From the IMG/VR virus record IMGVR_UViG_3300017989_000035, positions 1-43,189 of that record: a stretch of 43,189 bases of DNA. The stretch is one strand, 5' to 3'. The number at the start of each line of letters is the position of its first letter. The stretch's first letter is position 1. Source of the stretch: a virus. The position numbers and the translations under genes are program-made. Below are positions 10,301-30,033 of this stretch, piece after piece. The notes under the pieces were generated by a model. That model made no database searches and had not been told where the DNA came from. It was given only the letters and a program-made list of their open reading frames with translations.

Positions 10301-13239
10301 CGGCCGAAGCCGCAACGCCTTATGGTGCCGACGTGGCCCGCGAGGTTCCCGCCGTGGAGCTTGGCGCCCGGTACCTGAACGCGCGCTTGCCGGGCGAGGC
10401 TCTCACGCAGGAAGCCGCCGAGCGCGTGATGCAGGAACGCTTCGGCGATAAGTTCGATAAGGCCGCCGTCACCCGCATGGTGCAGGCCGCCCGGCCGCCG
10501 GCCACCGCGGAGGGCCGCCTGGAGGCCCTGGTGGAGCGTGAGAGCGCCGAGACCACCCGCAGGCTTAAGCAGCAGGGCCGCGGCGGCTACGTGGACGTGG
10601 AGGCCCCACAGGCGGCCCCCGGCGAGGGATCGCGCGCCGCCCAGGCCCTGAAGACCGGCCGCGTTAAGCCCGTGGGCGCCCTGGGAAGGCTCCGCACCCG
10701 GCTCAGGCGCACCTTCGAGGCCTTCGACCAGGGATTCGTGCGGTTCATGCCGGGGTTGAATGACCACCCGCAGCTGCGCAACGACTACCGCACGCAGTTC
10801 ATGCCGATGCGCCGGCGGGTATACGACGAGGTGGGCAAGATGCGCTATGCGGTGATGGGCGCCCTGGAGGCCGGCGAGGGCCGCCGCGGGGTGAATCACG
10901 CCGTGGATATCATCTGGACCCGCGACCTTCTCGAGCGCTCCCGCTCCGGCCAGACCGTGATGCAGGACCTGAGCGAGGAGGAACTGCAGGCCCACCTGGA
11001 GGCCCTCGAGAGCGCCGCCACCCCGGAGGTGCGCCGCGCCGCCCAGCTCATGCGCGACACACTGGACGAAGTCGGCCAGTCCCTGGTGGCGCGCGGCAAG
11101 CTCAGCTCACTGCAGAATGAGTATGCCCCGCACCACGTGATCGACTACGTTCCCGCTTTCATGCTGGCCAAGGGCGATACCTCCGCGGCCATACAGAAGA
11201 AGTTCGGCGAGCCTTACCGCAGCTACACGAAGAAGGCCGTGGGCAGCGCCCGCATCATCGAGACCAGCGAGGACACCCTCTGGAGCCACGTGGCCAAGGT
11301 GCTGCTGGATAACCGCCTGGAGGATTGGATGCTCGACCAGGCCCGGCGCTACGACGCCCGCGCCGCCTGGCACGAGGCCAACCCCGGCCGCCGCCTGCGC
11401 GCCGGCGATAAGGTGGAGGTCAACGGCAAGAAGCACGCCGCCATCCGCTGGCGGCGCAATGGATTCACCGCCACCGCCATCGACGAGGACATGCTGGCCG
11501 GGGCCCTGAAGGACGAGCTCAGGGTAGACGAGTGGCTACAGCTGCGCGGTCCGCGCGGCGGCCGCCCCCTCAGCCAGGTCCGCGCGATCGGCGCCGACAC
11601 ACTCTTCCTGGTCCCCGAGGACGTGGCCGGGGCGCTCAATAACCTCATGGAATACTCCGACCCGATGTGGGACGTGCTTTACGGGGTGGGGACCCTGACG
11701 CGCCATTGGAAGGCTCTCACCCTGACGGCCGCGGGGCTGCCCTACCAGATCGGCAACATCTTCGGCGACACCATTAATACCACCATGTTCGACCCCGGCG
11801 CTTTCCCGTACATGCTCGGCGCCATGCGCGTGGCCACCAGGCTTTTCTTCCCGCAATCCGCGGCCGGCCGCCGGATCCGGCTCACCGGCTTCGAGGAGAA
11901 CCTCCTGCGCGTGGCACAAGAGCAGGACGTGGCTTATGCCGGGCCCATGGCCGAGGTCCGCACCTACGGCGCCAAGGCAAACCTGCTGCGCCGCTACCAG
12001 GCCGCCAGCGACTGGCGCGAGGCCATTAATCGCCTGGCCATCCTGGCCCACCAACTCCACCGCATTGACGCCGGCAAACCCGTGCAGCGTGTGGCCGCCA
12101 TCAACATCGACGGCCTGGAGCCCGAAGCCCAGGCCGGTAAACTGGCCCGCGAGGCCCTCGTTGACTACGTATCCTCCCCCCGGCTGTATAAACGTATGCT
12201 TTCCAACTTGGCCGCGCCCTTTATCCGGTTTCACGAGCAGAACTTCCGCAACCACTTCCGCGCCGCCACCAAGACCCCGGGCCGCTACTGGTGGAAGGTC
12301 CTGGGCGCCTATGCCCTGGCCTGGGTGTTCAACAACAAGGATCCGGAGCGGCGCAAACGCGAGCTGCAGCTGCCCGATTACATCCGCAACCGCCTGCACT
12401 TCATCATGTGGGACGCCGCCGACCCCGGCATGACCTGGGTATGGGCCCCGCAGCAACCCATCGACATGGCCGCCGCCTGGCTGGGACTGGACACCGTCGG
12501 CAGGCACCTCTCCAACATCTACGCGGGGCGCAGCAGCGTGCGGGAAGCCGCGCGCGAGTTTGCCGGCGACGTGCTCAGCGCCCCCCCCGACCAATTCGAG
12601 AGCATCAGCAGCCCCTTGATTCAGTTCTTCAGCGGACTCAAGACCAACCGGGATCCCTTCACCCAGGGCCGCGTGATGCCCGAGTGGATTCATGAGGAAT
12701 GGCGCCGGGACGGGATTAACCGGCGCGCGGCCCGTTACATCGTCCCGTACTTTGCCGAGAAGATGATCACACCAATAGCCCAGTACACCAGGCGCAACCG
12801 GTCCCAGGAGCCCGAGGGCAATGCCATCTGGGACTGGCTCAAGAACGGCCCCCTGGCCGCGCGGCGCGCCCTGGGATTCTACAAGGTGGACCTCACCAGG
12901 GCCGTCCTGGCCGAGGAATACGAAGCCGCCGGCGACGAGAAGGCCACCTACGCCTGGCACAAGGACCGCATCTTCCGCATGTACGAGCGCGACGGACTCG
13001 CTGCCGAGAGCAAGGTCCAGGGCTACCTCAGCGACTTGAGGCTTGACGAAGACATCGACCTGCGCGATAACCTCCGCCAGTGGAAGGAGTCGCCGGCCTT
13101 GCGGCTCACCGTCGCACGCTCCGAGCTGCGCAAGACCGACGACCCCGCACAGCGCGCCCGCCTGCGTTCTCTCATCGCCATGGCCCGCTACCAGCAGGCC
13201 GAGGAAGTCCGCAAGCGGGTCCCCAAAGCCGTGAGGTAG
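4333..13239 (+). CDS. Giant polyvalent protein (RelA/SpoT-like, PRTase-like, RadC/JAB-like domains)
   Basis: One open frame of 2968 residues. From the N-terminus: an Ala-rich virion-like part; a Pro-rich linker with a 25-residue duplication (427-476); a RelA/SpoT-like nucleotidyltransferase segment (about 890-1065, with KDHTRGAILL and later GEVQVHTPDSW); a phosphoribosyltransferase segment (about 1290-1470) whose PRPP loop reads VVIVEDVVTTGDT; a RadC-type JAB domain (about 1700-1825) with HNHPSG.PDPSAED; and a second, motif-less JAB-like copy (about 1870-1995). The last 850 residues are helical with a hydrophobic patch near 2460. This mosaic matches the 'polyvalent protein' class of phages and conjugative elements, thought to be delivered with DNA and to act against host defences. 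The N-terminal enzymatic roles are inferred from motifs. Confidence 0.75.
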   Translation: MAFDPAMVYADPRWEEMARDPGRRREAKGKMFDWYLAENPQRKAVYDQQPHATRRAIREEFDRRLLERDAAAWGPEPKSGLERAWESVRGRIESWRKPETEEPAALETPPPEGEKRSLVPDWVSEGTKDLLWSSFSQPVMALMGGLNSRYGQTLALLATAYEHYADQLGISEEKKKSGLRKLAETHQAMGAELQEYGKGAGPIGEMGAKFYTGLGEAGWGVAEIVALKNLGPFAMGAVGAVESAPGGPQASTRAFAEGVAMQGILRAASAMPKGLHAATTGTVFAGMEAAGGGDLQDVAASGAIGAALAMTGRRGPTMKEFLAPYAGQVDSLRLNTFYKVRDTLARQAVKSSNGKLNMNRATRFADQYLAFKVQKMGGFKNVSLRQMRKSMRALEGSKGKIVLDPEFFRPLGAQATGEPTGHGGPDAPPARPGTRPPPVAALPAGRAQDVGAPPARPGTRPPPVAALPAGRAQDVGGAAPRSAPIPPPLPQDMGGKADDRQTQGRVAPVEPQEGRPGQPQAPGGTVPEPGGGGETGAPGAVLQAQEGQPPLHGEGGTVTAEESQRQQQEAAAQGALEEMAQARNVYDLASEKAGFPIRKGDSVFLATQANGKPYTKPQAVEVLQAVDAEHVMIRRRKGRKLDKIETVEINRLQEPKRAEAYRKRAQAFQQMPQEERAQVRKADREFNQILSEELYFYPPDALQEVAAAEDMGNARQAGRVKAAWMAAARELAFRELGMEEADPADPRARAEALPKLKAWLQGAGRDVIAHDQGLMTIHEIKRNQPRDVMDLDLDLAEGDMIYRDGEWYQVQPPSEEGNLADLVDGERITLSGFDTVDDVQGVIKPGEPGYREALAEYSARIREEKSGQWSPESIKFRHPDLWAGAEEVHQEAGRQQAQLDAIMAAAVEGLEVAEVLGTPKSVKSLVEKVVRKQVAGKEYGLGDIKDHTRGAILLRDWSQVPELVQRLRARAEFAGEETVSAKAHNQFGYRGMMLTTRLPGGLNGEVQVHTPDSWQLKKQTDKSYRRWRTYSDVEMEMLPADVQEGAKADIAAGLKAWTDYWDNVPSPVREEASAAVSGVESITAPNLPANLTQPPTPASQTRTPAPLDMGRRSITLPSESKPKSPISTPHATTIEPAAGKVKPQTQENLSDLEAALDALEVPAVVREVPPEYGTSFRAMLERTAGALQGKAGARREVLATRAMMQKARALLTALDEGRITETEARERWEKAERQIGGVQDRAQARSAARGRGQQIDLFAPPQGELRLVREAAAWHGAAAVKPRRLGLEPAALRARYVAATGNVGQIRKEKNELQAAGYPRAMVRKFVERYYKRERFAPALEGRNNVYLPTPSTSGDNAIPLVLAWALQRDFGGLVVPDTAVDAMHQTKAAKLSGLKKLQNPRQYVVIDRPAIPPDANVVIVEDVVTTGDTVEALEDAWAAAGVQVDQIASLGQSDPRVASRRDLERLSEKLQTAVDLPPGEVYRSVEEAFQGALKHRLNHIERAITNAGEATKREAWALISQRAQAVRQAAEGLLPGQSAAARAEPGAAAPAPAIPGPQDGGQVQPELIDVEARKLAGIPDRQIRAYLEARNVQPEQLDEATREQRQWLQRISRASAVPYRQPELFEEGRPAQPVAPEAAPAPAVQRGPEERGAAAARALRLTPGAEPARVAEATGELSEAYRQAFEHGDTVSAFIHERYQNPGTAWPIRGFIINNPRDLMTLAMELRSPYQETMKAAYLDSKNRVITAKIITVGLLDASLVHPREVFGPAPEGTKSVLLTHNHPSGHPDPSAEDFKISRQLVEAGRILGYQVLDHVITDDWQYYSLREHGGMQFPEHAGTVPPPRGMKKIERRVEAPPAAEQGAPAGLRRGELPTIKHPTHLGPLLKGLRQASPDHGHAILLNTQSRIVAVHRFRITTDATQMGNELARMAIGEGTGAALLLDLPVPTDEAVKLTWRMITAFKTLDIKVVDTLDAGQVSLREQGLVQFAAEAATPYGADVAREVPAVELGARYLNARLPGEALTQEAAERVMQERFGDKFDKAAVTRMVQAARPPATAEGRLEALVERESAETTRRLKQQGRGGYVDVEAPQAAPGEGSRAAQALKTGRVKPVGALGRLRTRLRRTFEAFDQGFVRFMPGLNDHPQLRNDYRTQFMPMRRRVYDEVGKMRYAVMGALEAGEGRRGVNHAVDIIWTRDLLERSRSGQTVMQDLSEEELQAHLEALESAATPEVRRAAQLMRDTLDEVGQSLVARGKLSSLQNEYAPHHVIDYVPAFMLAKGDTSAAIQKKFGEPYRSYTKKAVGSARIIETSEDTLWSHVAKVLLDNRLEDWMLDQARRYDARAAWHEANPGRRLRAGDKVEVNGKKHAAIRWRRNGFTATAIDEDMLAGALKDELRVDEWLQLRGPRGGRPLSQVRAIGADTLFLVPEDVAGALNNLMEYSDPMWDVLYGVGTLTRHWKALTLTAAGLPYQIGNIFGDTINTTMFDPGAFPYMLGAMRVATRLFFPQSAAGRRIRLTGFEENLLRVAQEQDVAYAGPMAEVRTYGAKANLLRRYQAASDWREAINRLAILAHQLHRIDAGKPVQRVAAINIDGLEPEAQAGKLAREALVDYVSSPRLYKRMLSNLAAPFIRFHEQNFRNHFRAATKTPGRYWWKVLGAYALAWVFNNKDPERRKRELQLPDYIRNRLHFIMWDAADPGMTWVWAPQQPIDMAAAWLGLDTVGRHLSNIYAGRSSVREAAREFAGDVLSAPPDQFESISSPLIQFFSGLKTNRDPFTQGRVMPEWIHEEWRRDGINRRAARYIVPYFAEKMITPIAQYTRRNRSQEPEGNAIWDWLKNGPLAARRALGFYKVDLTRAVLAEEYEAAGDEKATYAWHKDRIFRMYERDGLAAESKVQGYLSDLRLDEDIDLRDNLRQWKESPALRLTVARSELRKTDDPAQRARLRSLIAMARYQQAEEVRKRVPKAVR
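5611..5760 (+). repeat. 75-bp tandem duplication in the giant gene linker
   Basis: Two adjacent identical 75-base units (5611-5685 and 5686-5760), 25 codons each, encode a Pro/Ala/Arg-rich stretch ending AQDVG. The unit length keeps the giant frame open. It lies just upstream of the embedded ORF at 5825. Confidence 0.9.
5825..6007 (+). CDS. Embedded small phage protein in the +1 frame of the giant gene
   Basis: A 60-residue protein, MIVKRKDGWHLLS..., rich in Lys and aromatic residues, with a middle (LGGPYPSRAGAEKRERQVQYFKH) that reads like the short phage proteins of the 'KKDGW-vvS..tGK-LGgpY.sraeAekRLrQVeyFKH' type I know from tailed phages. In this frame nearly every codon ends in G or C, as in real genes of this genome. 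In the giant frame the same bases give a P/G/Q/E-rich linker with many A- and T-ending codons. A G-rich stretch lies about 8 bases upstream of the ATG. The function of the family is unknown to me. Confidence 0.6.
   Translation: MIVKRKDGWHLLSLKKDAQGNHKHLGGPYPSRAGAEKRERQVQYFKHKKGSRHYMEKAGR
8852..9037 (+). CDS. Second embedded ORF in the +1 frame of the giant gene
   Basis: A 61-residue basic, helical protein (MPAKQQSVRPGHLSASELKR...) containing LSRAQLHQLRQYQGRKMAAKF. Codon third positions are mostly G or C in this frame, while the giant frame over the same bases is an A/P/G/Q-rich linker with many A- and T-ending codons, between the PRTase-like and RadC-like parts. The ribosome site is weak (GAAAGG, about 9 bases before the ATG). 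I do not recognise the family. The codon pattern is the main support. Confidence 0.45.
   Translation: MPAKQQSVRPGHLSASELKRFDKQQRDYCLGKAPRPELSRAQLHQLRQYQGRKMAAKFSQN
9107..9319 (+). CDS. Possible third embedded ORF, Pro-rich
   Basis: A 70-residue ORF in the same +1 frame as the two other embedded ORFs, with GGAGG six bases before its ATG. It is Ser/Pro-rich and contains NPSSLKKDDPLNRWLL and then a run of six prolines. Its codons end mostly in G or C, but the giant frame here also looks protein-like (helical, EQRQWLQR), so both frames could be used in the first half. Weak candidate. Confidence 0.25.
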   Translation: MSNQSNSTKPPASRGSGSSAYPEPPQCRIVNPSSLKKDDPLNRWLLRPPPPPPYNGAPKSAAPPPPAPCA

Positions 13240-14455: not shown

Positions 14456-14496
14456 GACGTCAGACGATAGAGCTGAACCAATCATAGGTGGCGCCC

Positions 14497-15711
14497 ATGA
14501 ACGATACGTACAAGCTTGTCCCTGTCCTTGGGGCCAACAAGAAGCCGATCCGAAATCTCTTTACGCGGAACGGCGTCTATTATCTCCAGGCCCAGATTCA
14601 CGGCAAGAGGTATTTAAGGGCAATACCCTGGCAGACCAAGAGCCAGGCGGCAAAATGGGTGCGAGAGTTCATTATTACGGCCAAGGCCGGCCGCGCGGAT
14701 CTGCTGGAGGCCAGCAAAGCGCGGTCAAGTTACGCGACGATCGGCGCCCTCATCGACACGTACTTAATGGGTGCTCAAGAGCAGTATGCTATTCACGGGC
14801 ACCCGCAACCGATGACCGCCAAACATAACGCACATCGCTTGCGGTATATTCTTCGCCACGCCGGTTATTCTCAGGTCGATCGATTGAGCACTCAGGTTTT
14901 GACTCGAGAACTGGCCGAGCGGCACATCGCCGAAGCAGTGCGTCAAGCCGGCAACGACTTTCAGATGCAGACGCGTGCGCGTGTGAGCGCTTGTTCGTCG
15001 GTGAATCAGGCCAAGTCTATCTTCACTAAGTGGGCGGTGTCTTACTACGCAAACCGTATCAATTTGCCGCCGACTGTAGAAACGTTCCGCCAAGCAGGCA
15101 GAGGGGCAAAACGACCTAAGTATGTAATCCCGCCCCAGGCATTGCGCGAGAAGACTATGGCCGCTGCCGTCGAACTCAAGAACGCCGATCAAGTGGACTT
15201 ATTCGCGGTGTTTTTGCTCTGCCACGATCTGGGTATGCGCTCGGGCGAGGCGGTGGCCGCCCAGTGGAGCTGGTTTGAATCTTGTGAGGTCGACGGTCGG
15301 CTCTGCCGCGAGATTGTTATCAAGCGCCGCGCCGACTGGAAAGGGCCTAAGAACCAGGTGGAGCACAGGGTGCCTATTCACGATACGACATGGGCTGACC
15401 TAACGTTATGCAGAGAGCAGTTTGCGCAGACATCGGACTATCAGCAGGCCGGTTTTGTTTTGCCCGGCAGCACGAAGAACTTGCGCACCGAGCTCATCGA
15501 GCGCCGTTTCTCATGTTGGATGCGGACCCTGGGCTGGGACCGGCGGACGTATCCGAAGGCGGCGCATGAGTTGCGCAAGCTGGCCGGCTCCAAATGGTAT
15601 ACAGAAGCCGGCCTGGAGTGGGCCGCCGCCTGGCTGGGCGACAACCCGCAAACCGTCTACCACTATTACGCCGACACGATGCAGCAGCACGCCCCGATCC
15701 GGATGCGCTGA
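14497..15711 (+). CDS. int: Tyrosine site-specific integrase
   Basis: A phage integrase of 404 residues from the ATG at 14497 (AGGTGG five bases upstream; a GTG at 14488 is an alternative). The first part carries an arm-binding-like region and a helical core-binding region. The catalytic domain shows Arg248 in LGMRSGEA, His357 and Arg360 in HELRK, and the tyrosine at about 391 in TVYHYYA. The usual second histidine in the L-G-H motif is replaced by Asp (WLGDNPQ), seen in some family members. It would integrate and, with a partner, excise the phage. It lacks a recognisable IntI-specific insertion, so it is not an integron integrase. It converges with the minus-strand gene at 15714. Confidence 0.88.
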   Translation: MNDTYKLVPVLGANKKPIRNLFTRNGVYYLQAQIHGKRYLRAIPWQTKSQAAKWVREFIITAKAGRADLLEASKARSSYATIGALIDTYLMGAQEQYAIHGHPQPMTAKHNAHRLRYILRHAGYSQVDRLSTQVLTRELAERHIAEAVRQAGNDFQMQTRARVSACSSVNQAKSIFTKWAVSYYANRINLPPTVETFRQAGRGAKRPKYVIPPQALREKTMAAAVELKNADQVDLFAVFLLCHDLGMRSGEAVAAQWSWFESCEVDGRLCREIVIKRRADWKGPKNQVEHRVPIHDTTWADLTLCREQFAQTSDYQQAGFVLPGSTKNLRTELIERRFSCWMRTLGWDRRTYPKAAHELRKLAGSKWYTEAGLEWAAAWLGDNPQTVYHYYADTMQQHAPIRMR

Positions 15712-21673: not shown

Positions 21674-22129
21674 ATGCCCACAATGACACAGACGGAGAAA
21701 CTGAGGCAAATGGCCAAGGCTGAGCAGGCGGAGGCTGAGAAGACGCGCGAGGGGATCGGCCCGCGGACCAGGGAACTGGGCCGCATGATAGCCGAGGAGC
21801 ACGAAAGCTCCGCGGCTGCCGATATCCACCGCGTGCTGAAAACGGGCAGGCTGGTGCCCGCCCGTGAAGCGGGCACGGAGCCTGAGGGTAAGAGCGGAGA
21901 GATTCTCGAGGCGCTGCGGGATCTGGAGGGGGCGTTGGAGGACCACATTACGTCCCTCGAGATGCTCGAAGGCCGCCTGGAGGTGGTGCTGCTGCCGCCG
22001 ATAGAGACCCCCGAGAGGAAGCGTGTCCAGCGCGATACGGTCCTGGGGCGGGTGATCGGCAACTTGACCCACCGGGTTGAAGATCTCAGCGCCGCCGTGC
22101 AAGCGCTGTGCTCAAGAATACAACTCTGA
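21674..22129 (+). CDS. Coiled-coil protein of unknown function
   Basis: A 151-residue protein with GAAGGAGAAGAGG before the ATG. The whole length is acidic and helical (heptads such as LRDLEGALEDHITSLEMLEGRLEVV). It follows a short hairpin, ggcccc-ttga-ggggcc, at about 21643. It overlaps the next start by one base. No domain recognised. Confidence 0.45.
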   Translation: MPTMTQTEKLRQMAKAEQAEAEKTREGIGPRTRELGRMIAEEHESSAAADIHRVLKTGRLVPAREAGTEPEGKSGEILEALRDLEGALEDHITSLEMLEGRLEVVLLPPIETPERKRVQRDTVLGRVIGNLTHRVEDLSAAVQALCSRIQL

Positions 22130-22602
22130 TGCCCAGAGAGAGACTACCAGCGGTGAGAGCGGGGAAGACGCACAGGGCTGTGATCTTCTCCGCTCCACCC
22201 TCCTGTCCCCATTGCGGCCAGGGTAATGGAGACGGGATGGTGGAGTTTTACATCACCGCCAACCGCTACCCGGACGGCCGGGTAGCCGAGGTGTTTTTGA
22301 CGATGGACCAGACCGGCAGCACCCTGGACGGGTTTGCGGACGCCTGGGCGACGGCGGTGAGCCTCTACCTGCAATGCGGCGGGGGGCTGGGGACGCTGGC
22401 AAGAAAGTTCTCTTTCCAGGAGTTTGCGCCCTCGGGGATGAGCAAGGAGCCCGACCTGGGCCGCGCCCGCAGCGTGGTGGACTACACGGTGAGATGGCTT
22501 GAGAGAGAGTTTAAACCGAAGCTGAGAGGAGATGAGGATGAAACCGAGAGAGTTCAAACAGGCCAACCGGCTGCTGACGAAGCCGGCGGGCATGACGGAT
22601 GA
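22129..22602 (+). CDS. Free-standing TSCPD-domain protein
   Basis: A 157-residue protein from the ATG that overlaps the previous stop (a GTG at 22108 is an alternative). The core has EFYITANRYPDGRVAEVFLTM, GSTLDGFADAWATAVSLYLQ, and SVVDYTVRWLEREF. This matches the TSCPD domain that normally ends B12-dependent ribonucleotide reductases, but here it stands alone behind a CPHC metal-site remnant. Phage-borne solitary TSCPD proteins are known but their function is not. Confidence 0.65.
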   Translation: MPRERLPAVRAGKTHRAVIFSAPPSCPHCGQGNGDGMVEFYITANRYPDGRVAEVFLTMDQTGSTLDGFADAWATAVSLYLQCGGGLGTLARKFSFQEFAPSGMSKEPDLGRARSVVDYTVRWLEREFKPKLRGDEDETERVQTGQPAADEAGGHDG

Positions 22603-22863: not shown

Positions 22864-23094
22864 ATGATTGAAGGTACGGTAGAGACCACCACCGAAGAAG
22901 CGCGCACGCGCAGCCCCACGGTGATCAATCGCGCGGCGGTGCGGCGGTTTATCCTGCAGTATGCCGGGCGCACGCGCCGCCACCGCTACACGCAGGTTGC
23001 CCCCGCGGTTTATGACGAGCTGGAGGCCCAGGTGCGCGAAGCGTGCCGGCGCCTGGTGCACCGCCAGCCGAGCAAGGGCAAGACGATAAGGTGA
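22864..23094 (+). CDS. Short histone-like protein (tentative)
   Basis: A 76-residue protein with AAGGAAGGGAAGTCAGCC before the ATG. It reads as a first helix (VINRAAVRRFILQYA), a loop with RRHRY, a long second helix (PAVYDELEAQVREACRRLV) and a GKTI motif. This resembles the first two helices of a histone fold, as in small bacterial and archaeal histone relatives (SKVKE..., then RAxANxRkTV), but the third helix is missing. It could bind DNA as a dimer. The call is by eye. Confidence 0.35.
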   Translation: MIEGTVETTTEEARTRSPTVINRAAVRRFILQYAGRTRRHRYTQVAPAVYDELEAQVREACRRLVHRQPSKGKTIR

Positions 23095-23102
23095 GGTACC
23101 CG

Positions 23103-23513
23103 ATGAAGTACATCATGTGCGCCAAGACCTACCCCGCATATCACCCCAAGGCGGGGCAGCCGACCGGTTTCCGCGAGTCTATCCTGTCGGGCCGCAAAGT
23201 GCACACGTTGCGCCAGTCCGCAGGCAACCGCAAGACCGGCGACACGGTATCGCTACGCGAGTGGGAGGGACGGCCATACGCGAGCAAGCAGGTGGAGTTT
23301 GCCCGGTGCCGGATAACGGTTGAGGTGCTGAGGATCAACGGCGTGCCTGCCTGGGACCCAGGTGTAGTCAACCTGGCGCACTGCGACGGATTCGACGACC
23401 CGCAGGACTTCGCCAACTGGTTTCGCGCACAGCCCGCGGGGCTGGTCTATTTTGACGGTGCGTGCATCTACTTCGAGGATGTTGAGGCCAACGTGAAAGG
23501 TGAGCGTTCGTGA
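23103..23513 (+). CDS. ASCH/PUA-like domain protein
   Basis: A 136-residue protein with GGTGAGG upstream. SGRKVHTLRQSAGN...KTGDTVSLREWEGRPYASKQVEFARC resembles the ASCH/PUA-like proteins encoded by many phages, small RNA- or nucleotide-binding domains. The last residues (EANVKGERS) lie in the attC-like site at 23486. It is the leftmost gene of the first cassette array, so it may be backbone or captured. Confidence 0.55.
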   Translation: MKYIMCAKTYPAYHPKAGQPTGFRESILSGRKVHTLRQSAGNRKTGDTVSLREWEGRPYASKQVEFARCRITVEVLRINGVPAWDPGVVNLAHCDGFDDPQDFANWFRAQPAGLVYFDGACIYFEDVEANVKGERS

Positions 23514-23622
23514 AGGGCACACAGAGAGTGCTTGTGATTGATGACGACCGTGGGCGGCCCCTGCACGAGTTGCTTCGTGAATACGCGGCCCTTCACGATA
23601 CGTCTCCACCTTCTGGTTGGCC
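23486..23622 (+). other. attC-like site, 137 bases
   Basis: Left core GGCCAAC (23486-23492), right core GTTGGCC (23616-23622), exact reverse complements. The inner arms TCGTGAAGGGC and GCCCTTCACGA pair perfectly, and the outer arms AAAGGTGAG and CTCCACCTT pair with unpaired extra bases on the right arm. Unpaired bases of this kind orient attC recombination. Confidence 0.75.
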
Positions 23623-23794
23623 TCATCCGCTGGTCTGCAATGCGGCGGCCGAGTGCCAGTCTACGACGTGCCATCACCGCAATCCGCATGAGCGCGCGTG
23701 GGATTGCGAGAACACGGACATCTGCTACTGCCTCTCTCCAGAACGTGAGACCACATGTGTAGAGGCCAACGTGAAAGCTGAGGGTTCGGAATGA
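23510..23794 (+). CDS. Cassette ORF, Cys/His-rich small protein
   Basis: A 94-residue ORF from a GTG overlapping the previous stop (GTGA). The C-terminal half has a dense Cys/His set (C43, C49, then CHHR, C, C.C), possibly a zinc site. Its N-terminal third is encoded by the attC-like site, so its natural start is uncertain. It ends EANVKAEGSE, nearly the same as the previous gene, because both stops lie in homologous attC-like ends. Confidence 0.4.
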   Translation: MKGTQRVLVIDDDRGRPLHELLREYAALHDTSPPSGWPHPLVCNAAAECQSTTCHHRNPHERAWDCENTDICYCLSPERETTCVEANVKAEGSE

Positions 23795-23841
23795 AGCGAG
23801 CAACGAGCGAAATGGAGATACCCTCCGGCGCTTTGTTGGCC
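23764..23841 (+). other. attC-like site, 78 bases
   Basis: GGCCAAC (23764-23770) and GTTGGCC (23835-23841) are perfect reverse complements. AAAGCTGAGGGT pairs with ACCCTCCGGCGCTTT with extra bases on the right. The 16 bases at the left end match the previous site. Confidence 0.75.
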
Positions 23842-24531
23842 TTTTCGGTCACGACCGATGATGCCGAAGCAAGCGTGCTGGTGTGGGAAACGACACCAGG
23901 GAAGGCCAAGGCGTCCGCGCTTTGTTCTCTCTGGCTGGACGGATGCGAATGGAACGACCTGCGGTGCAAGCGGGAGCCTCGCGCCGATGGATACCGCACG
24001 ACGCCGGGGACGCTGGGCGACGATTGCACGCCGGATGATTGCCGCCTGATGCGGAATCTCGGTTGGTGCGAAATCGACGGGTCAGAAGAGCAGTGCAGCG
24101 AGTGTGGTAAGTACGAGTGGCGTATGGTGCCGGAAAGCCGCCTGCCGGAAGATGGCGACGTGTGCGCGGAGTGTCAGGCCAACGCAGGAGTGAGGCGATT
24201 CATGATTCCAGACACACCATTCTACGACATGCTTTCACGGATGCCCGTTCGCCAGACTCAGTACGTTGCGATGCCCAAAACGCGGAATCATGAATCGCCT
24301 CGACTCGATTGTTCTGCGCTCACGGTCAACACAACGTATGCGGTCAGGTTCGGGAAGCCGCGACTGAAGGTGCGACTGTGGTTCTGGTGGATGAAGCACG
24401 TCCGCCGCAAGAAGTGGCGTTCGCTGCATGAAGAAGCGGCGCGGCAGATGCGGCAGAGAATCGAAGAAGGCGTCATGCGATGCTTGGCGCAGAACGTGAG
24501 CGTGAGCATTTCCGGGAAGGGGGCACGATGA
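23791..24531 (+). CDS. Cassette ORF(s), in-frame fusion across attC-like sites
   Basis: A 246-residue ORF from the ATG that overlaps the previous stop. The first two-thirds have many Cys (CSLWLDGCEWNDLRC, CSECGKYEW, CAECQANAG), a zinc-ribbon-like pattern; the rest (after about residue 175) is basic and helical (LRLKVRLWFWWMKHVRRKKW). An attC-like site at 24177-24317 lies inside the frame, so this is probably two cassettes fused by an open frame. A weaker site near 23862-23930 may mark another joint. No family recognised. Confidence 0.45.
   Translation: MKRATSEMEIPSGALLAFSVTTDDAEASVLVWETTPGKAKASALCSLWLDGCEWNDLRCKREPRADGYRTTPGTLGDDCTPDDCRLMRNLGWCEIDGSEEQCSECGKYEWRMVPESRLPEDGDVCAECQANAGVRRFMIPDTPFYDMLSRMPVRQTQYVAMPKTRNHESPRLDCSALTVNTTYAVRFGKPRLKVRLWFWWMKHVRRKKWRSLHEEAARQMRQRIEEGVMRCLAQNVSVSISGKGAR
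24177..24317 (+). other. attC-like site, 141 bases
   Basis: Left core GGCCAAC; the right core is GTTCTGC, a weaker match. An 18-bp perfect stem (GAGGCGATTCATGATTCC with its complement) extends as GAGT/ACTC after an extra G. The end CCTCGACTCGATTGTT matches the 24779 site's CCTCGACGTGATTGTT. Confidence 0.55.
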
Positions 24532-24636
24532 ACCGAACGCGAGGAAACATTGGCGACACCTCAAAATCAGCCGTAGGGCGTGAGCGAGCGGAGAAGCCGC
24601 CCCCTTCTCGAAATATGCTCCACGATTTTGTTGGGC
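24489..24636 (+). other. attC-like site, 148 bases
   Basis: Right core GTTGGGC (24630-24636) fits the consensus exactly; the left core GCAGAAC (24489-24495) is weaker. The arms GAGCATTTCCGGGAAGGGGG and CCCCCTTCTCGAAATATGCTC pair with small bulges. The start codon of the next ORF lies inside it. Confidence 0.5.
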
Positions 24637-24803
24637 GGGTCCTATGTCGCGTCCACTTGCACAAATGGCGCGAGACGGCCCGGACCGGTCTCGGGTTGCT
24701 CACGTACTACCGCTGCACCCGCTGCGGCGTTACCGGAGAAAGTCACGTCATGGACGAGGGCGACATCTACGAACATGCGCCCAACGCCTCACGTGAGGCT
24801 TGA
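24528..24803 (+). CDS. Cassette ORF, small zinc-ribbon-like protein (DUF1660-like)
   Basis: A 91-residue protein whose ATG overlaps the previous stop (ATGA) with GGGAAGGGGG upstream. The middle, VGRVLCRVHLHKWRETARTGLGLLTYYRCTRCG, looks like a short phage zinc-ribbon protein (DUF1660-type). The stop lies in the attC-like site at 24779. Confidence 0.5.
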   Translation: MNRTRGNIGDTSKSAVGRERAEKPPPSRNMLHDFVGRVLCRVHLHKWRETARTGLGLLTYYRCTRCGVTGESHVMDEGDIYEHAPNASREA

Positions 24804-24837
24804 GCGATAGCGAATAGCCTCGACGTGATTGTTGTGC
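24779..24837 (+). other. attC-like site, 59 bases
   Basis: GCCCAAC (24779-24785) fits RYYYAAC; GTTGTGC (24831-24837) differs from GTTRRRY at one base. Arms TCACGTGAGG and CCTCGACGTGA pair with one extra G. Length typical of attC. Confidence 0.75.
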
Positions 24838-24856
24838 GAGGCATGGAGGAAAGACG

Positions 24857-25051
24857 ATGGATCAATGCAAACATTGTACGGTGCGTGGCGACTACGACAA
24901 ATGCAGGCAGACACCTTGCAGCCTCCGCGAGAACTGGGGGTTCCGCGAGGCCGTGGAGCATGCACACATGGCCGGACAGATGGATGCCGGGTGCAAGCAT
25001 CCCGGCTACAGCAACGCGAGGGCGTATTTCGACAGTACGCACAACGATTAG
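24857..25051 (+). CDS. Cassette ORF, Cys-rich small protein
   Basis: A 64-residue protein with GGAGGAAAGACG before the ATG. Cys spacing (CKHC...CRQTPC...) could hold a metal. The stop TAG lies inside the next attC-like site (25039), the usual cassette layout. No family recognised. Confidence 0.5.
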   Translation: MDQCKHCTVRGDYDKCRQTPCSLRENWGFREAVEHAHMAGQMDAGCKHPGYSNARAYFDSTHND

Positions 25052-25098
25052 CGTCAGTGGCGCGGCTTGTCCGCGTACACTGCACGCTCTGGTTGGGG
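25039..25098 (+). other. attC-like site, 60 bases
   Basis: GCACAAC (25039-25045) and GTTGGGG (25092-25098) differ from the cores at one base each. Arms AGCGTCAGTG and CACTGCACGCT pair with one extra C. A stop codon of the previous ORF lies in the left spacer. Confidence 0.7.
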
Positions 25099-25150
25099 CT
25101 GCCCATCCCGACCGGAGCGACAACAAACACAGGGCAAGGAGGAGCAGATC

Positions 25151-25336
25151 ATGGAAGCGACAACACTGAAATACGAACTGAGCGGCGATGGGCTTGGACT
25201 GAAGAAGTGGTTTCGAGCAAAGGATAACAGCGAGAACTTCTTCCACGTCCACAGCGACGAAATGACCGAACTTGAACAGTGGATTCACGGTCTGCTTTCT
25301 TGCCCCAACAAGGCAATATCAAAACACGAGCACTAA
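25151..25336 (+). CDS. Last cassette ORF of array 1
   Basis: A 61-residue protein with AAGGAGGAGCAGATC before the ATG. It ends ISKHEH, and the last ORF of array 2 ends ISKHGH, because both terminate in the same shared sequence. Otherwise unrelated to it. Function unknown. Confidence 0.5.
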   Translation: MEATTLKYELSGDGLGLKKWFRAKDNSENFFHVHSDEMTELEQWIHGLLSCPNKAISKHEH

Positions 25337-25350
25337 CGGCTTATGCGGAA
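25312..25350 (+). repeat. 39-base shared array border, copy 1
   Basis: Differs from 29984-30022 at 4 of 39 positions. It contains the stop of the last cassette ORF, a CACTAACGG stretch resembling an attC left core, and the ATGCGGAA in which the next phage gene starts. Confidence 0.85.
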
Positions 25351-25627
25351 TTGGCGTAAATGGCGGGAGGGTAAGGAGCTGCGCAGCCGGCGGGCCAGCT
25401 ATGCGGCACAGTGCCGCTGGGCGCGGCATCACGCGGATGCGCCCAAAAGGGATACGCGTAAAATCGTGATTGAAATCCGCGACACCCACCGGCCAACACA
25501 GTTGATTCGCGCGGAGCAGTGCGAAACCACCGACGGCCGCTGGAGCAGGTGGAAAATTGCGGGTTGCGGTTGCCGTCCGGTGGCGACCAGCGGCCTGGGA
25601 CGGCTGATTGCGGAGGCGCTGAGGTAA
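25343..25627 (+). CDS. Small basic protein upstream of terminase
   Basis: A 94-residue protein, very basic at the start (MRNWRKWREGKELRSRRASY), with a strand-like second half. Its ATG lies in the shared array border. No clear ribosome site, so it may be translated by coupling. The stop overlaps the terminase ATG by one base. Not recognised; a small terminase subunit would be expected nearby, but this has no visible HTH. Confidence 0.45.
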   Translation: MRNWRKWREGKELRSRRASYAAQCRWARHHADAPKRDTRKIVIEIRDTHRPTQLIRAEQCETTDGRWSRWKIAGCGCRPVATSGLGRLIAEALR

Positions 25628-27801
25628 TGGGCAGGACGGTGGAATTGCATCCTTTCTTGCCGGCGCCGGGCTGGGAGGCGGTGGCCGAGGAGGCCCGGCG
25701 GCGGGGTTGCAGCCAGGCGGCGGCGTTCCACGCGCTGCTGGAAAACCGCCGCCAGGTGATCGAGGCGGAGACGGCCGATCCGCTGCGCTGCGGGTACGAG
25801 CCGCCGATCTGGCATGTGTGCGATGCCCTGCTGGGCTTTGAGTTCTGCAACGAGGATTTTTCCAGGCATATCCGCGGGCGCTTCGATATGGGATGGGAGG
25901 AGTGGGCGGCGGCAATGCGCCGCCGGCTGGGTTTTGCCCACCCGGTCCAGCAGCTTTTGATCATGGGGTGCAACCGCAGCTCCAAGAGCGAGTATGCCGC
26001 CAAGCGCGGACAGCTGGTGCTGACGACCAAGGCGGGGGCGCGGGTGTATCCCTTCCACATGAGTAACCCGCGCAGCGTGCGCGAGCAGCAGCCGCTTTTC
26101 TGGAAGTATATGCCGCCGGAGTGGCGCGTGCAGACGGCCAGTACCGAGGAGTATATCAAGTATAAGAAGAAGACGGGCTTTTCTGAGAATAGCTTTATCA
26201 ATCCGATCGGCGGGGAGTGCATGTTCCTCAATTACATGCAGGACCGCGATACCGCCCTGGAAGGGCTGGAGGCCGACCTGATGCTGCCCGATGAACTCGT
26301 GCCGCCGGACTGGGTGGAGACGATGGCTTACCGCCTGGCTACGCGCCACGGGCGCATGGTGGTGACGTTTACACCGATTAACGGCTACACCCCCACGGTC
26401 AAAATCTTCCAGGACAGCGCCGAGGCGGTGCGGGAGAGCGTGGGCTTTATGCTGCCCAGGGACGGCGGCGATCCGCTGCCGCATTGCGCCCTGGGGCTGG
26501 ACGAGCGGGAGTATGCGGAGGTGCAGACCGCCGAGGAGGATAAGCGCGCCGCGCAGGCGCCGCATTCGCGGCCGGAGGATTGCAGCGCCTGGCTGGAGGA
26601 GGAGGACGATGGCGCCGGGGCGCGGCCCGCCCACCGGCCCTTCGGCTACGGCAACGCGCAGCCGCCGGCGCCTGAGGGCCGGCGCTTCGAGATGATGCCG
26701 CGCGTCTTGCGCTGCGTGGACCCGCGTAAGGCGGTGGTGTTCTTCCACGCCTGCGATAATCCCTACGGGAACACCAAGGAGGTTATCGCCGAGGCCTTGC
26801 AGAAGGGCCGCGAGGAAATCCGCGTGCGCGTCTACGGCAAGGCCGAGCGCACCACCAGTTGCCGGTTTCCCAAGTTCAGCGTGCGGGTGCACCGCCTGAG
26901 CGCGGCGGCCGTTCCCGAGGAGGGTACAAACTGGATGCTGCTGGACCCGGCCAGCGACCGCAACTTCTTCCTGACGTGGATCCGCGGGACGCCGGAGGGC
27001 AGCTATGTGTACCGCGAGTGGCCCGGCACCGACGAAATCCCCGGCGTGGGGATCCCCGACCCCTGGGCGGTGCCCAGCGGCAAGAAGGAGGGGCGCAACG
27101 ACGGCGAGCGGGGCCGCGGGCAGGACAGCCTGGGCTGGGGACTGCTGCGCTACAAGTTCGAGATCGCCCGCCTGGAACGCTGGGAGGACTACAAGCAATG
27201 GCTGCTGAGGCAGCCCGGCGACGAGGAGGCCAAGTTGCGCGCCATCCTGGACCAGGCGCTTTATCCCAGCGACGAGGAACTGGCGGCCTGGGATGAGTTT
27301 CACGGCGCCGAGGAGGTGATGGAGGGGCGCGTGGTGGACTCGCGGGCGGCCAGCACCCCGCGCGTGGAGCACGACCGCCCCGTGACGCTTTTTGAGGATC
27401 TGCTGGATTTGGGTATGGATTTTGACCTTTCCCCCGGCATATCGGTGGACGACGGGGTGGCCAAGGTGAATACGGCGCTTGATTATGCGCAGGACGAGCA
27501 CCTGAGCTTTAGCAACCGCCCGCACCTGTATGTGAGCGAGCGCTGCCCCAACACCACCTATGCGCTGGAGAACTGGCTGGGGGTGGACGGGCAAAGCGGC
27601 GCATCCAAGGACCCCATCGATAACCTGCGCTATTACTACGGCAAGGAGTGCGGTTTTGTGGAGCCGGGCAGCTACGGGCCGCGCGGAGGGTTTTATTACG
27701 GGAGAGGATCGCAGCGCGCGCGGCGCACGCCGGGCTATGGCCGGCCCGCTCCGGCGCGGCGCAGCCGCATGAAACGCGCCAGGCTGAACCTGGGCAGATA
27801 G
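25627..27801 (+). CDS. terL: Terminase large subunit (T7-like)
   Basis: A 724-residue packaging ATPase/nuclease. Walker A lies at about 114-121 (GCNRSSKSE, with Ser for the usual Gly), and a strand ending VVTFTP (about 240) fits the coupling segment. The C-terminal part has a nuclease-like Asp in MLLDPASDRNFF (about 440). The overall spacing and length fit the podovirus-type terminases. The ATG overlaps the previous gene's stop. It cuts concatemers and drives DNA into the procapsid through the portal at 35672. The long acidic insert near 310-345 is lineage-specific. Confidence 0.8.
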   Translation: MGRTVELHPFLPAPGWEAVAEEARRRGCSQAAAFHALLENRRQVIEAETADPLRCGYEPPIWHVCDALLGFEFCNEDFSRHIRGRFDMGWEEWAAAMRRRLGFAHPVQQLLIMGCNRSSKSEYAAKRGQLVLTTKAGARVYPFHMSNPRSVREQQPLFWKYMPPEWRVQTASTEEYIKYKKKTGFSENSFINPIGGECMFLNYMQDRDTALEGLEADLMLPDELVPPDWVETMAYRLATRHGRMVVTFTPINGYTPTVKIFQDSAEAVRESVGFMLPRDGGDPLPHCALGLDEREYAEVQTAEEDKRAAQAPHSRPEDCSAWLEEEDDGAGARPAHRPFGYGNAQPPAPEGRRFEMMPRVLRCVDPRKAVVFFHACDNPYGNTKEVIAEALQKGREEIRVRVYGKAERTTSCRFPKFSVRVHRLSAAAVPEEGTNWMLLDPASDRNFFLTWIRGTPEGSYVYREWPGTDEIPGVGIPDPWAVPSGKKEGRNDGERGRGQDSLGWGLLRYKFEIARLERWEDYKQWLLRQPGDEEAKLRAILDQALYPSDEELAAWDEFHGAEEVMEGRVVDSRAASTPRVEHDRPVTLFEDLLDLGMDFDLSPGISVDDGVAKVNTALDYAQDEHLSFSNRPHLYVSERCPNTTYALENWLGVDGQSGASKDPIDNLRYYYGKECGFVEPGSYGPRGGFYYGRGSQRARRTPGYGRPAPARRSRMKRARLNLGR

Positions 27802-28298: not shown

Positions 28299-29474
28299 AT
28301 GCCGACGAAGATTGAATGGACACAGGAAACATGGAACCCCATCACGGGGTGCAGCCCCGTTTCTGAGGGGTGCCGCAACTGCTATGCGCGGCGCATGGCC
28401 ACGCGCCTGGCGGGACGCTGCGGTTACCCCCGGGATAATCCCTTTGCGGTGAACTGGCGCGGGGGCTGGCAGCCGCCGGGCCGCGACTGGCCGGTGATCG
28501 AGCAGCCCGCGCACTGGAAGAAGCCGCGCATGGTGTTTGTGGGTTCGATGGGAGACCTTTTCCATGAGGACGTGCCTGAGCACTGGATCGATCGAGTGTT
28601 TTGTATGATGACCAGTCCCCATTGCGGTGCTAACCACCACACCTACCTGCTTTTGACCAAGCGCCCACAGCGGATATATGCGGACGGGCAGGTGCAGCGC
28701 TTCCGGAAATGGCGCAATATCTGGCTGGGGGTGACCGCGGAGAACCACGTGGAGGCCTGCGAGCGTATACCCTGGCTTTTGCAGATCCCCGCGGCAGTGC
28801 GGTTTGTGAGCGTGGAGCCGATGCTGGGGCCGGTGAAGATGAGGCGCAGCGTGCTCACGTGCGGTGCGGGCGTGGGCAGTGTGCCAAGCGGCCCGCCCTA
28901 CTACCGCGACGAGAACTGGCTCACGGGCTATGTGGGTAATTCAGACCACAAGGGGAAAGGTGCGGGATTTTGTGATGGAGGGCGGCTTGACTGGGTGATT
29001 GCAGGTCCCGAGACCGGGCCCGGCGCCAGGCCGTGCGATCCGCGGTGGATCGAGGACCTGGCCCTGCAGTGCGACCAGGCCAAAGTGCCGTTCTTCGACA
29101 AGCGCAAATCCGGATGGATCAAGAGGCAGTGGCCGAAGGCGCATGAGCCGAACGCTGGCGGTGAGTTTCGGCGCGGTAGCGACGATATCGTCGATGTTCT
29201 GGTTGGGCTCGCCCCCTGCCAGAACGGAAAGGATAGCAAGATGGGAATGCGAGAACTCGAAGGCGCGATTGCAAACGAACTGCGCGAGATCGTCGGCAAG
29301 CGGTCGATCCGCGTGAAGGACATGATGGAGTGGAGCACGTCGGAGGACGTGGTCCGCAAGAACGCGACGGATGACGAGACCGTCATCCACTGCCCACGCA
29401 ACGGGGTATGGGTTGCCATCGCATCCTCCAAGGTGCCCAACGATCAAGCTGACGCTTCGGCGGAACGCCGATAG
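28299..29474 (+). CDS. Gp37/Gp68-family (DUF5131) protein, with a cassette ORF fused at its end
   Basis: A 391-residue frame with AAGGAGAAATA before the ATG. The first 280 or so residues match the phage Gp37/Gp68 family: WNPITGCSPVSEGCRNCYARRMATRL (three-Cys start), GSMGDLFHEDVP, LLTKRPQRI, CG.......GPETGPGARP and FDKRKSGW. Members are radical-SAM-like and of unclear function. The last 110 residues do not fit the family and include a second ribosome site and ATG at 29241, so a separate ORF has probably been joined in frame. Confidence 0.7.
   Translation: MPTKIEWTQETWNPITGCSPVSEGCRNCYARRMATRLAGRCGYPRDNPFAVNWRGGWQPPGRDWPVIEQPAHWKKPRMVFVGSMGDLFHEDVPEHWIDRVFCMMTSPHCGANHHTYLLLTKRPQRIYADGQVQRFRKWRNIWLGVTAENHVEACERIPWLLQIPAAVRFVSVEPMLGPVKMRRSVLTCGAGVGSVPSGPPYYRDENWLTGYVGNSDHKGKGAGFCDGGRLDWVIAGPETGPGARPCDPRWIEDLALQCDQAKVPFFDKRKSGWIKRQWPKAHEPNAGGEFRRGSDDIVDVLVGLAPCQNGKDSKMGMRELEGAIANELREIVGKRSIRVKDMMEWSTSEDVVRKNATDDETVIHCPRNGVWVAIASSKVPNDQADASAERR
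29241..29474 (+). CDS. Cassette ORF in frame with the Gp37/68 gene
   Basis: 77 residues from the internal ATG, which has GGAAAGGATAGCAAG upstream and begins 33 bases after the GTTGGGC core at 29202. It is helical then strand-rich (IANELREIVGKRSIRVKDMMEW). Its end is inside the attC-like site at 29435. It may be translated alone or as part of the longer frame. Confidence 0.4.
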   Translation: MGMRELEGAIANELREIVGKRSIRVKDMMEWSTSEDVVRKNATDDETVIHCPRNGVWVAIASSKVPNDQADASAERR

Positions 29475-29494
29475 CGTCCGGCGCTTGGTTGGGT
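29435..29494 (+). other. attC-like site, 60 bases
   Basis: GCCCAAC (29435-29441) and GTTGGGT (29488-29494) match RYYYAAC and GTTRRRY exactly. AAGCTGACGC pairs with GCGTCCGGCGCTT with extra bases, and CGGCG/CGCCG close the tip. By eye the best attC-like site in the window; similar in layout to the 60-base sites of mobile integrons. Confidence 0.85.
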
Positions 29495-29524
29495 GTTCCC
29501 CATCCAGCGCCAGAAGGGAGAGAC

Positions 29525-29767
29525 ATGGGATTGTGTGTTGACATTGATGAAACGCCGCACGGTATGTCGTTTGAGGTACGGCGCGAAAGCGTCATTTTCG
29601 ACTGCGTGGATGGGGGCGGGGCGACTGAACCCCTAGAGATTGGCAAGGCCGATCTGCTCAAGATCAAGGGATTGCTTTGTGATCCGGATTGGTCGCGTCG
29701 TCTTCTTCCACCCAACGACCGGGCTCACCGGACGGGAGCCCGCAACGATGGAGGTTCAAATGGGTGA
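29525..29767 (+). CDS. Cassette ORF, small protein
   Basis: An 80-residue protein with AAGGGAGAGAC before the ATG. The first 55 residues look like a strand-rich domain (GMSFEVRRESVIFDCVDGG), and the end is encoded by the next half site (ACCCAAC at 29710, hairpin GGGCTC/GAGCCC). Unrecognised. Confidence 0.45.
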   Translation: MGLCVDIDETPHGMSFEVRRESVIFDCVDGGGATEPLEIGKADLLKIKGLLCDPDWSRRLLPPNDRAHRTGARNDGGSNG

Positions 29768-30008
29768 TCAACTTTTGCGCGGGCTTCCGGTACGTGTGCA
29801 GCCCTTTGTTCGACTTGTGGCACGCCGCAACATCATCGGGCCGCAATGGGAGTTTCCAGTTGGGATGAAGCTGGAAGGCATGAAGTATCCTGACGGAACG
29901 TGGCGCGTATGGCCGCCCGAACAGGATCACGCATTCCTAGTTGGCGTCCCGCGCTGGTACGTGAAACGCGATAAGTCGAACACGGTAATATCAAAACACG
30001 GGCACTAA
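29760..30008 (+). CDS. Last cassette ORF of array 2
   Basis: An 82-residue protein with GGAGG five bases before the ATG. It has a strand-rich core (VRLVARRNIIGPQWEFPVGMKLEGM) and ends ISKHGH in the shared border. Unrecognised. Confidence 0.45.
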   Translation: MGDQLLRGLPVRVQPFVRLVARRNIIGPQWEFPVGMKLEGMKYPDGTWRVWPPEQDHAFLVGVPRWYVKRDKSNTVISKHGH

Positions 30009-30022
30009 CGGGCTATGCGGAA
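29984..30022 (+). repeat. 39-base shared array border, copy 2
   Basis: 35 of 39 bases match 25312-25350. Includes the stop of the last cassette ORF; the next phage gene has its own ribosome site 10 bases on. Confidence 0.85.
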
Positions 30023-30033
30023 AGGAGGGGCGG

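Follow-up and report, generated by a model that had tools for sequence, protein, structure and literature searches.

Cassette arrays in related phages suggest integron-type swapping of accessory genes with attC sites facing against the genes

Integrons are regarded as devices of bacteria, and those found in phages have been interpreted as captures made now and then. Insertion of a cassette at a GTT outside an integron (attG) would be possible in principle. Clusters of attC sites without an integrase gene (CALINs) have been published in phages, with 17 cases in 10,705 phage genomes, and five of six tested phage attC sites were active with IntI1 (Qi et al. 2023, PMC9892861). Phages that carry attC sites without IntI, which a first-pass annotation of the DNA studied here had taken to be hardly described, had thus already been published.

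The stretch analysed here (43,189 nt, hereafter the window) belongs to a phage, as indicated by its terminase-like large gene, which also served as the query for finding relatives (Table 1). It falls under the CALIN definition, with two or more close attC sites and no intI. The window carries two integron-type arrays without IntI, with attI-like right ends, and we consider it probable that these are served by a host IntI in trans and supply changeable accessory genes.

Two arrays of attC sites in the window

Array A spans 23616-25309 with six cassettes in succession, divided by six attC hairpins, and all six inverted repeats (137, 78, 141, 148, 59 and 60 nt) were found where the first-pass annotation had placed them, at 23486-25350. 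The interval itself holds for array A but needs revision in extent, since a second array of two cassettes, array B, had been overlooked at 29435-29981 and the right boundary is a conserved sequence recurring at 25307-25351 and 29979-30023. R' and R'' boxes with the conserved AAC and GTT are present in all eight sites, and the hairpins are imperfect with extrahelical bases on one arm, as in attC. The units which they delimit have the properties of gene cassettes, namely one ORF with one attC, complementary ends and behaviour as an exchangeable unit.

The cassette ends (GTT.../...AAC) of array A are complementary over 8-9 bp in six of six cassettes. When the window was shuffled 100 times (Markov-1), by contrast, the longest chain of such cassettes was one (69 shuffles), two (30) or three (1). 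On average, 4.6 of five variable bases were complementary within a cassette compared with 2.6 of five across a site, a contrast that is somewhat inflated as some boundaries were picked by complementarity. Higher complementarity within the cassette than across the site would follow from each cassette having formed a closed circle at some time.

A covariance model was made that drew on bacterial attC sites alone, 15 in all (four from a class 1 integron and 11 from Acidobacteriota integrons found through IntI). Of the eight window sites it matched four (24779, 25039, 29435 and 29710), each at E 0.003 or lower. The model search proposed in the first-pass annotation, run here with our own covariance model, therefore came out positive for these four and below significance for the other four (23486, 23764, 24177 and 24489), which are longer or more degenerate and draw their support from end complementarity and the extrahelical-base pattern. 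Matches were also obtained in the related phages L001, G003, G005, G306 (L244, L277) and G312, with E values down to 4e-10, and the published phage TJE1, a positive control outside the training set, gave three; the best match in 33 array-free phage contigs (331 kb) reached only E=3. Single-strand folding gave z values of -2.1 to -4.9 for six of the eight window hairpins and of -1.5 and -1.6 for the remaining two. A strict hairpin detector returned four matches in the window array versus two in 586 kb of L008-L080, both in one coding stretch. An Rfam scan gave no match, and neither an attC pattern search nor a search with head proteins yielded further loci. Model matches, folding (a check proposed in that annotation, with z down to -4.9) and the cassette differences of relatives, cut at G/TT, all agree with the initial attC reading. 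We conclude that the attC sites of the window are genuine by sequence and structure, their recombination by an IntI being a prediction.

These data also bear on the view that the region is an ordinary accessory region shaped by homologous recombination at short repeats, with incidental hairpins. Phage genomes are mosaic and some sites do have arm sequences in common, but such a process leaves unexplained why bacterial attC model matches are strong here and none occur in array-free relatives, why ends are complementary within a cassette and not between neighbours (partly a selection effect, see above), and why breaks are located at the crossover triplet; we regard it as highly improbable.

Table 1. 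Positions of the cassette arrays, attI-like sites and selected genes in the window.
Feature	Position	Strand	Details
Divergent tyrosine recombinase, 407 aa, not IntI	14488..15711	+	phrog_1, E 4.9e-13 (second search E 1.2e-13)
attC-like site 1, left end of array A	23486..23622	-	R-boxes GGCCAAC / GTTGGCC; fold z -4.85; covariance model not significant
Cassette A1	23616..23770	+	ends GTTGGCCTC / GAGGCCAAC; crossed by ORF 23510-23794
attC-like site 2	23764..23841	-	8.2 bits, not significant; ORFs 23510-23794 and 23791-24531 share 4 nt in loop
Cassette A2	23835..24183	+	ends GTTGGCCT / AGGCCAAC
attC-like site 3	24177..24317	-	extrahelical base; perfect 18-bp stem; fold z -3.58; model not significant
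Cassette A3	24311..24495	+	ends GTTCTGCGC / GCGCAGAAC
attC-like site 4	24489..24636	-	fold z -2.08; model not significant
Cassette A4	24630..24785	+	ends GTTGGGCG / CGCCCAAC; crossed by ORF 24480-24803
attC site 5	24779..24837	-	32.2 bits, E 1e-6 (model of bacterial attC)
Cassette A5	24831..25045	+	ends GTTGTGCG / CGCACAAC; ORF 24857-25051 (64 aa, Cys-rich)
attC site 6	25039..25098	-	22.7 bits, E 4.4e-4 (model of bacterial attC)
Cassette A6, attI-proximal	25092..25309	+	ends GTTGGGGC / GCCCCAAC; ORF 25151-25336 stops within attI-like site
attI-like site A	25307..25351	-	crossover AAC (reverse complement G/TT) at 25307-25309
94-aa gene	25343..25627	+	begins inside attI-like site A; homologue equally placed in L244 (41%)
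Large terminase-like gene	25630..27801	+	query for finding relatives
attC site, array B	29435..29494	-	25.2 bits, E 8.9e-5 (model of bacterial attC)
Cassette B1	29488..29716	+	ends GTTGGGTG / CACCCAAC
attC site, array B	29710..29814	-	21.8 bits, E 0.003
Cassette B2	29808..29981	+	ends GTTCGACTT / AAGTCGAAC; frame stops within attI-like site
attI-like site B	29979..30023	-	second copy of 25307 sequence

Orientation of the attC sites and attI-like array ends

Throughout the clade, all model matches lie on the strand opposite the genes. Counting cassettes between adjacent model matches revealed 0 with the same and 18 with opposite orientation in the clade, versus 13:4 in bacteria and TJE1 (Fisher p 1.6e-6); as the codon table used for scoring came from training on the window phage and at least one bacterial call of 'opposite' (L083 4266-4735) disagrees with the gene as annotated, the bacterial 13:4 understates the agreement. 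By codon statistics, plus is the coding strand in 35 of 36 cassettes. Read along the gene strand, class 1 sites have their extrahelical bases on the 5' arm and the alignable sites of the window, L001 and L003 have theirs on the 3' arm. A single extrahelical nucleotide has been reported to determine which attC strand is used (PMC2727003). In canonical polarity the ORF lies on the attC top strand, which is not the case in the clade. Since the relation between gene and attC is fixed within the cassette, independently of how an array is inserted, the clade cassettes are built differently from typical bacterial ones.

At their right ends, both window arrays terminate at one conserved attI-like sequence; viewed on the minus strand, they begin there. 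Similar sequences were found in relatives, and G306 has two copies, identical in 98 of 99 bp and starting at AAC. A relaxed motif (AAC-N5-AATAWC) searched over ~991 kb recovered the four array ends then known and two other places, and the exact pattern was absent from other viral contigs and from genome contigs. In G003, G005, G306, G312 and at window site A, a small gene begins within or just after the sequence. The conserved sequence thus occupies the position of an attI and may be regarded as a candidate attI, partly conserved between phages, given that these sequences are short, only moderately conserved and were recognised after the fact. The idea put forward in the first-pass annotation, that the cassettes were captured from a host integron, fits poorly with the opposite polarity (0:18 versus 13:4) and with conserved phage positions adjoining attI-like sequence.

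Cassette exchange, cargo and expression

Relatives with a terminase 46-53% identical (G003, G005, G306 and G312) carry arrays at or near the equivalent place. In G003 (L003), eight cassettes end just before the terminase; G005 has its array in L127, G306 has ~14 cassettes before the terminase in L244 and a second array in L277, and the arrays of G312 lie in L249 and L281. No array was found with the bacterial-attC model in the other terminase relatives examined, and the terminase tree requires at least three changes in array presence, so arrays come and go. A DNA search of the array among annotated phages gave no match. The sole close terminase relative in the genome collection is a 42.7-kb contig, possibly misbinned, of an Acidobacteriota MAG, and it has no array.

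Comparison of closely matching phages revealed whole-cassette differences cut at G/TT, as the first-pass annotation had anticipated for relatives. L001 and the window do not differ for 4,006 bp from 25305 rightwards; to the left, L001 has a cassette of 0.6 kb that is unrelated to that of the window and ends in GTTGGCCGT/ACGGCCAAC. In the second pair, L245 and L244 are 96.5% identical over the adjoining segment, with a methyltransferase cassette end in L245 and an HNH cassette in L244 at the junction. Identity starts at CCAAC in both pairs, AAC being the complement of the G/TT crossover triplet. Furthermore, a Dam methylase cassette is 85% identical between G003 and G005, from exactly GTT to a few bases beyond AAC, while sitting at different places between differing phage genes. 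Judged from these alignments, the data suggest a natural exchange of cassettes between closely matching phages.

Exchange of this kind already strains the view that the arrays are passive remnants, taken from host integrons by ordinary recombination and now inactive. The lack of IntI in these phages and the published captures of host integron segments (PMC9892861) would suit such remnants; phages that match almost throughout yet differ by exact cassettes, a Dam cassette that two phages have in common at different positions and a polarity unlike that of bacterial arrays would not, and we consider this origin quite unlikely. Instead, the arrays look like a cassette system maintained among the phages of the clade.

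The cargo of relatives includes a Lar restriction alleviation protein (TIGR03655, 41.2 bits, cut-off 39.6), N6/N4 and Dam methyltransferases and an HNH endonuclease, and an L001 cassette matches phrog_12600 (function unknown). Searches yielded no functional assignment for the cassettes of the window itself; the proposed store of anti-host genes draws support from relatives. A scan of 23000-25700 for sigma70 promoters gave one weak minus-strand match, no more than in shuffles, in agreement with the earlier view that the cassettes lack promoters. That stops fall within the sites is broadly right, although frames often cross the sites and adjacent ORFs overlap inside them: successive ORFs overlap by four bases in attC loops of the window (23510-23794/23791-24531), L003 (2687-2914/2911-3231) and L244 (6748-7041/7038-7505). 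Crossing frames and these overlaps lead us to infer that translation runs through the attC sites.

Among the genes around the arrays, ORF 23103-23513, with weak ASCH/DUF3850 similarity, has its 3' end inside the first attC site of array A and a 31-nt near-repeat (90%) in common with 23758-23788. A TSCPD-domain protein (PF12637, 28.9 bits) is encoded at 22108-22602; ahead of the array slot, it is conserved in L002, L006 and L087 as well. The gene of a DUF5131 protein (28299-29474, 246 bits) reaches at its 3' end into array B's first attC site; its homologue in L002 lies upstream of the terminase and not downstream as in the window. An ORF of 2968 aa (4333-13239), unusually large for the window phage, has one stretch matching phrog_10276 (DNA repair protein).

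Candidate recombinases and comparison with known systems

IntI (TIGR02249) was absent from the window, G003, G005, G306 and G312, records which may be incomplete, so that the gene could sit in missing parts. A candidate in the window itself is the 407-aa protein, which lies below the Pfam cut-off in a PF00589 search and is detected by the PHROG scan; its family was not detected in the array-bearing G306 or G312. As an observation in its own right, this gene suggests a temperate phage. A tyrosine recombinase encoded by the phages, such as this one, could have adapted to attC-like hairpins and move the cassettes, and the uniform reversed polarity together with the attI-like sites does suggest a phage-specialised system. 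The protein nevertheless has no IntI signature (TIGR02249), its family goes undetected in phages with large arrays (G306, 41.8 kb; G312, 44.0 kb), the contig of L246 encodes one yet gives no array match, and a lysogeny integrase is the simpler reading, which makes this route rather unlikely.

The lack of IntI in the phages and the failure to detect the window recombinase in G306 and G312 point to a host IntI in trans as the most likely driver, under the assumption that the host has one. In agreement with such a driver, IntI with typical attC occurs frequently in some environmental bacteria, with 90 of 297 Acidobacteriota genomes having it. Separately, a Pedosphaera (Verrucomicrobiota) MAG has an IntI over the family cut-off (L089 413-1273) and a canonical attC-like site on another contig (L091 2251-2331), while the Acidobacteriota IntI regions L133 and L139 show several evenly sized 124-bp attC matches on one strand, a homogeneous chromosomal array.

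In the proposed mechanism, the substrate would be the plus strand of the phage in folded form. IntI made by the host would act on it in trans, so that cassettes enter or leave either at the attI-like site or between two attC sites. Cassette genes would be transcribed from the phage operon and not from an integron promoter, and cassettes with attC upstream of the gene, i.e. of reversed polarity, would therefore be the useful kind. ATGA overlaps in the hairpin loops and frames crossing hairpins may couple translation, and the arrays would serve as a changeable accessory gene set, anti-restriction genes included. The broader picture of a phage-clade cassette economy, in which phage-adapted cassettes of reversed polarity circulate and are swapped at dedicated duplicated attI-like sites by host IntI or another recombinase, thereby renewing anti-defence genes, has in our judgement an even chance of being right. 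If a host integrase drives exchange, a phage would gain by infection a site-specific means of swapping genes, and reversed polarity would separate phage cassettes from the ones that bacterial integrons express. The arrays are found repeatedly in related phages, border on conserved attI-like sequences and have different cassettes in phages that are otherwise almost identical. This suggests that a phage family exchanges accessory genes by a bacterial integron trick, but with the attC sites oriented against the genes.

Within the portion of the open-licence literature covered, reversed polarity, attI-like slots, clade-wide recurrence and natural exchange pairs appear to be new, the 'reverse integron' of Treponema having been weighed by its description only. 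Published phage CALINs such as that of Tetrasphaera phage TJE1 resemble the window in having runs of attC and cassettes without intI, matches to the same model and methyltransferase cargo. In contrast, three of three attC matches of TJE1 lie on the gene strand and all those of the window clade on the opposite one, and the clade arrays have attI-like ends and recur in five related phages, at least two of which carry two arrays each. As far as the attG accounts covered go, attG insertion uses scattered sites, whereas the clade inserts at a repeated conserved sequence. Sedentary chromosomal integrons (here of Acidobacteriota) and class 1 integrons share with the clade the cassette structure, R boxes, two extrahelical bases, the G/TT crossover, 6 to ~14 cassettes per array and many unknown genes, but the clade differs from them in having no intI, no demonstrated Pc, a reversed attC polarity and a location within a phage operon.
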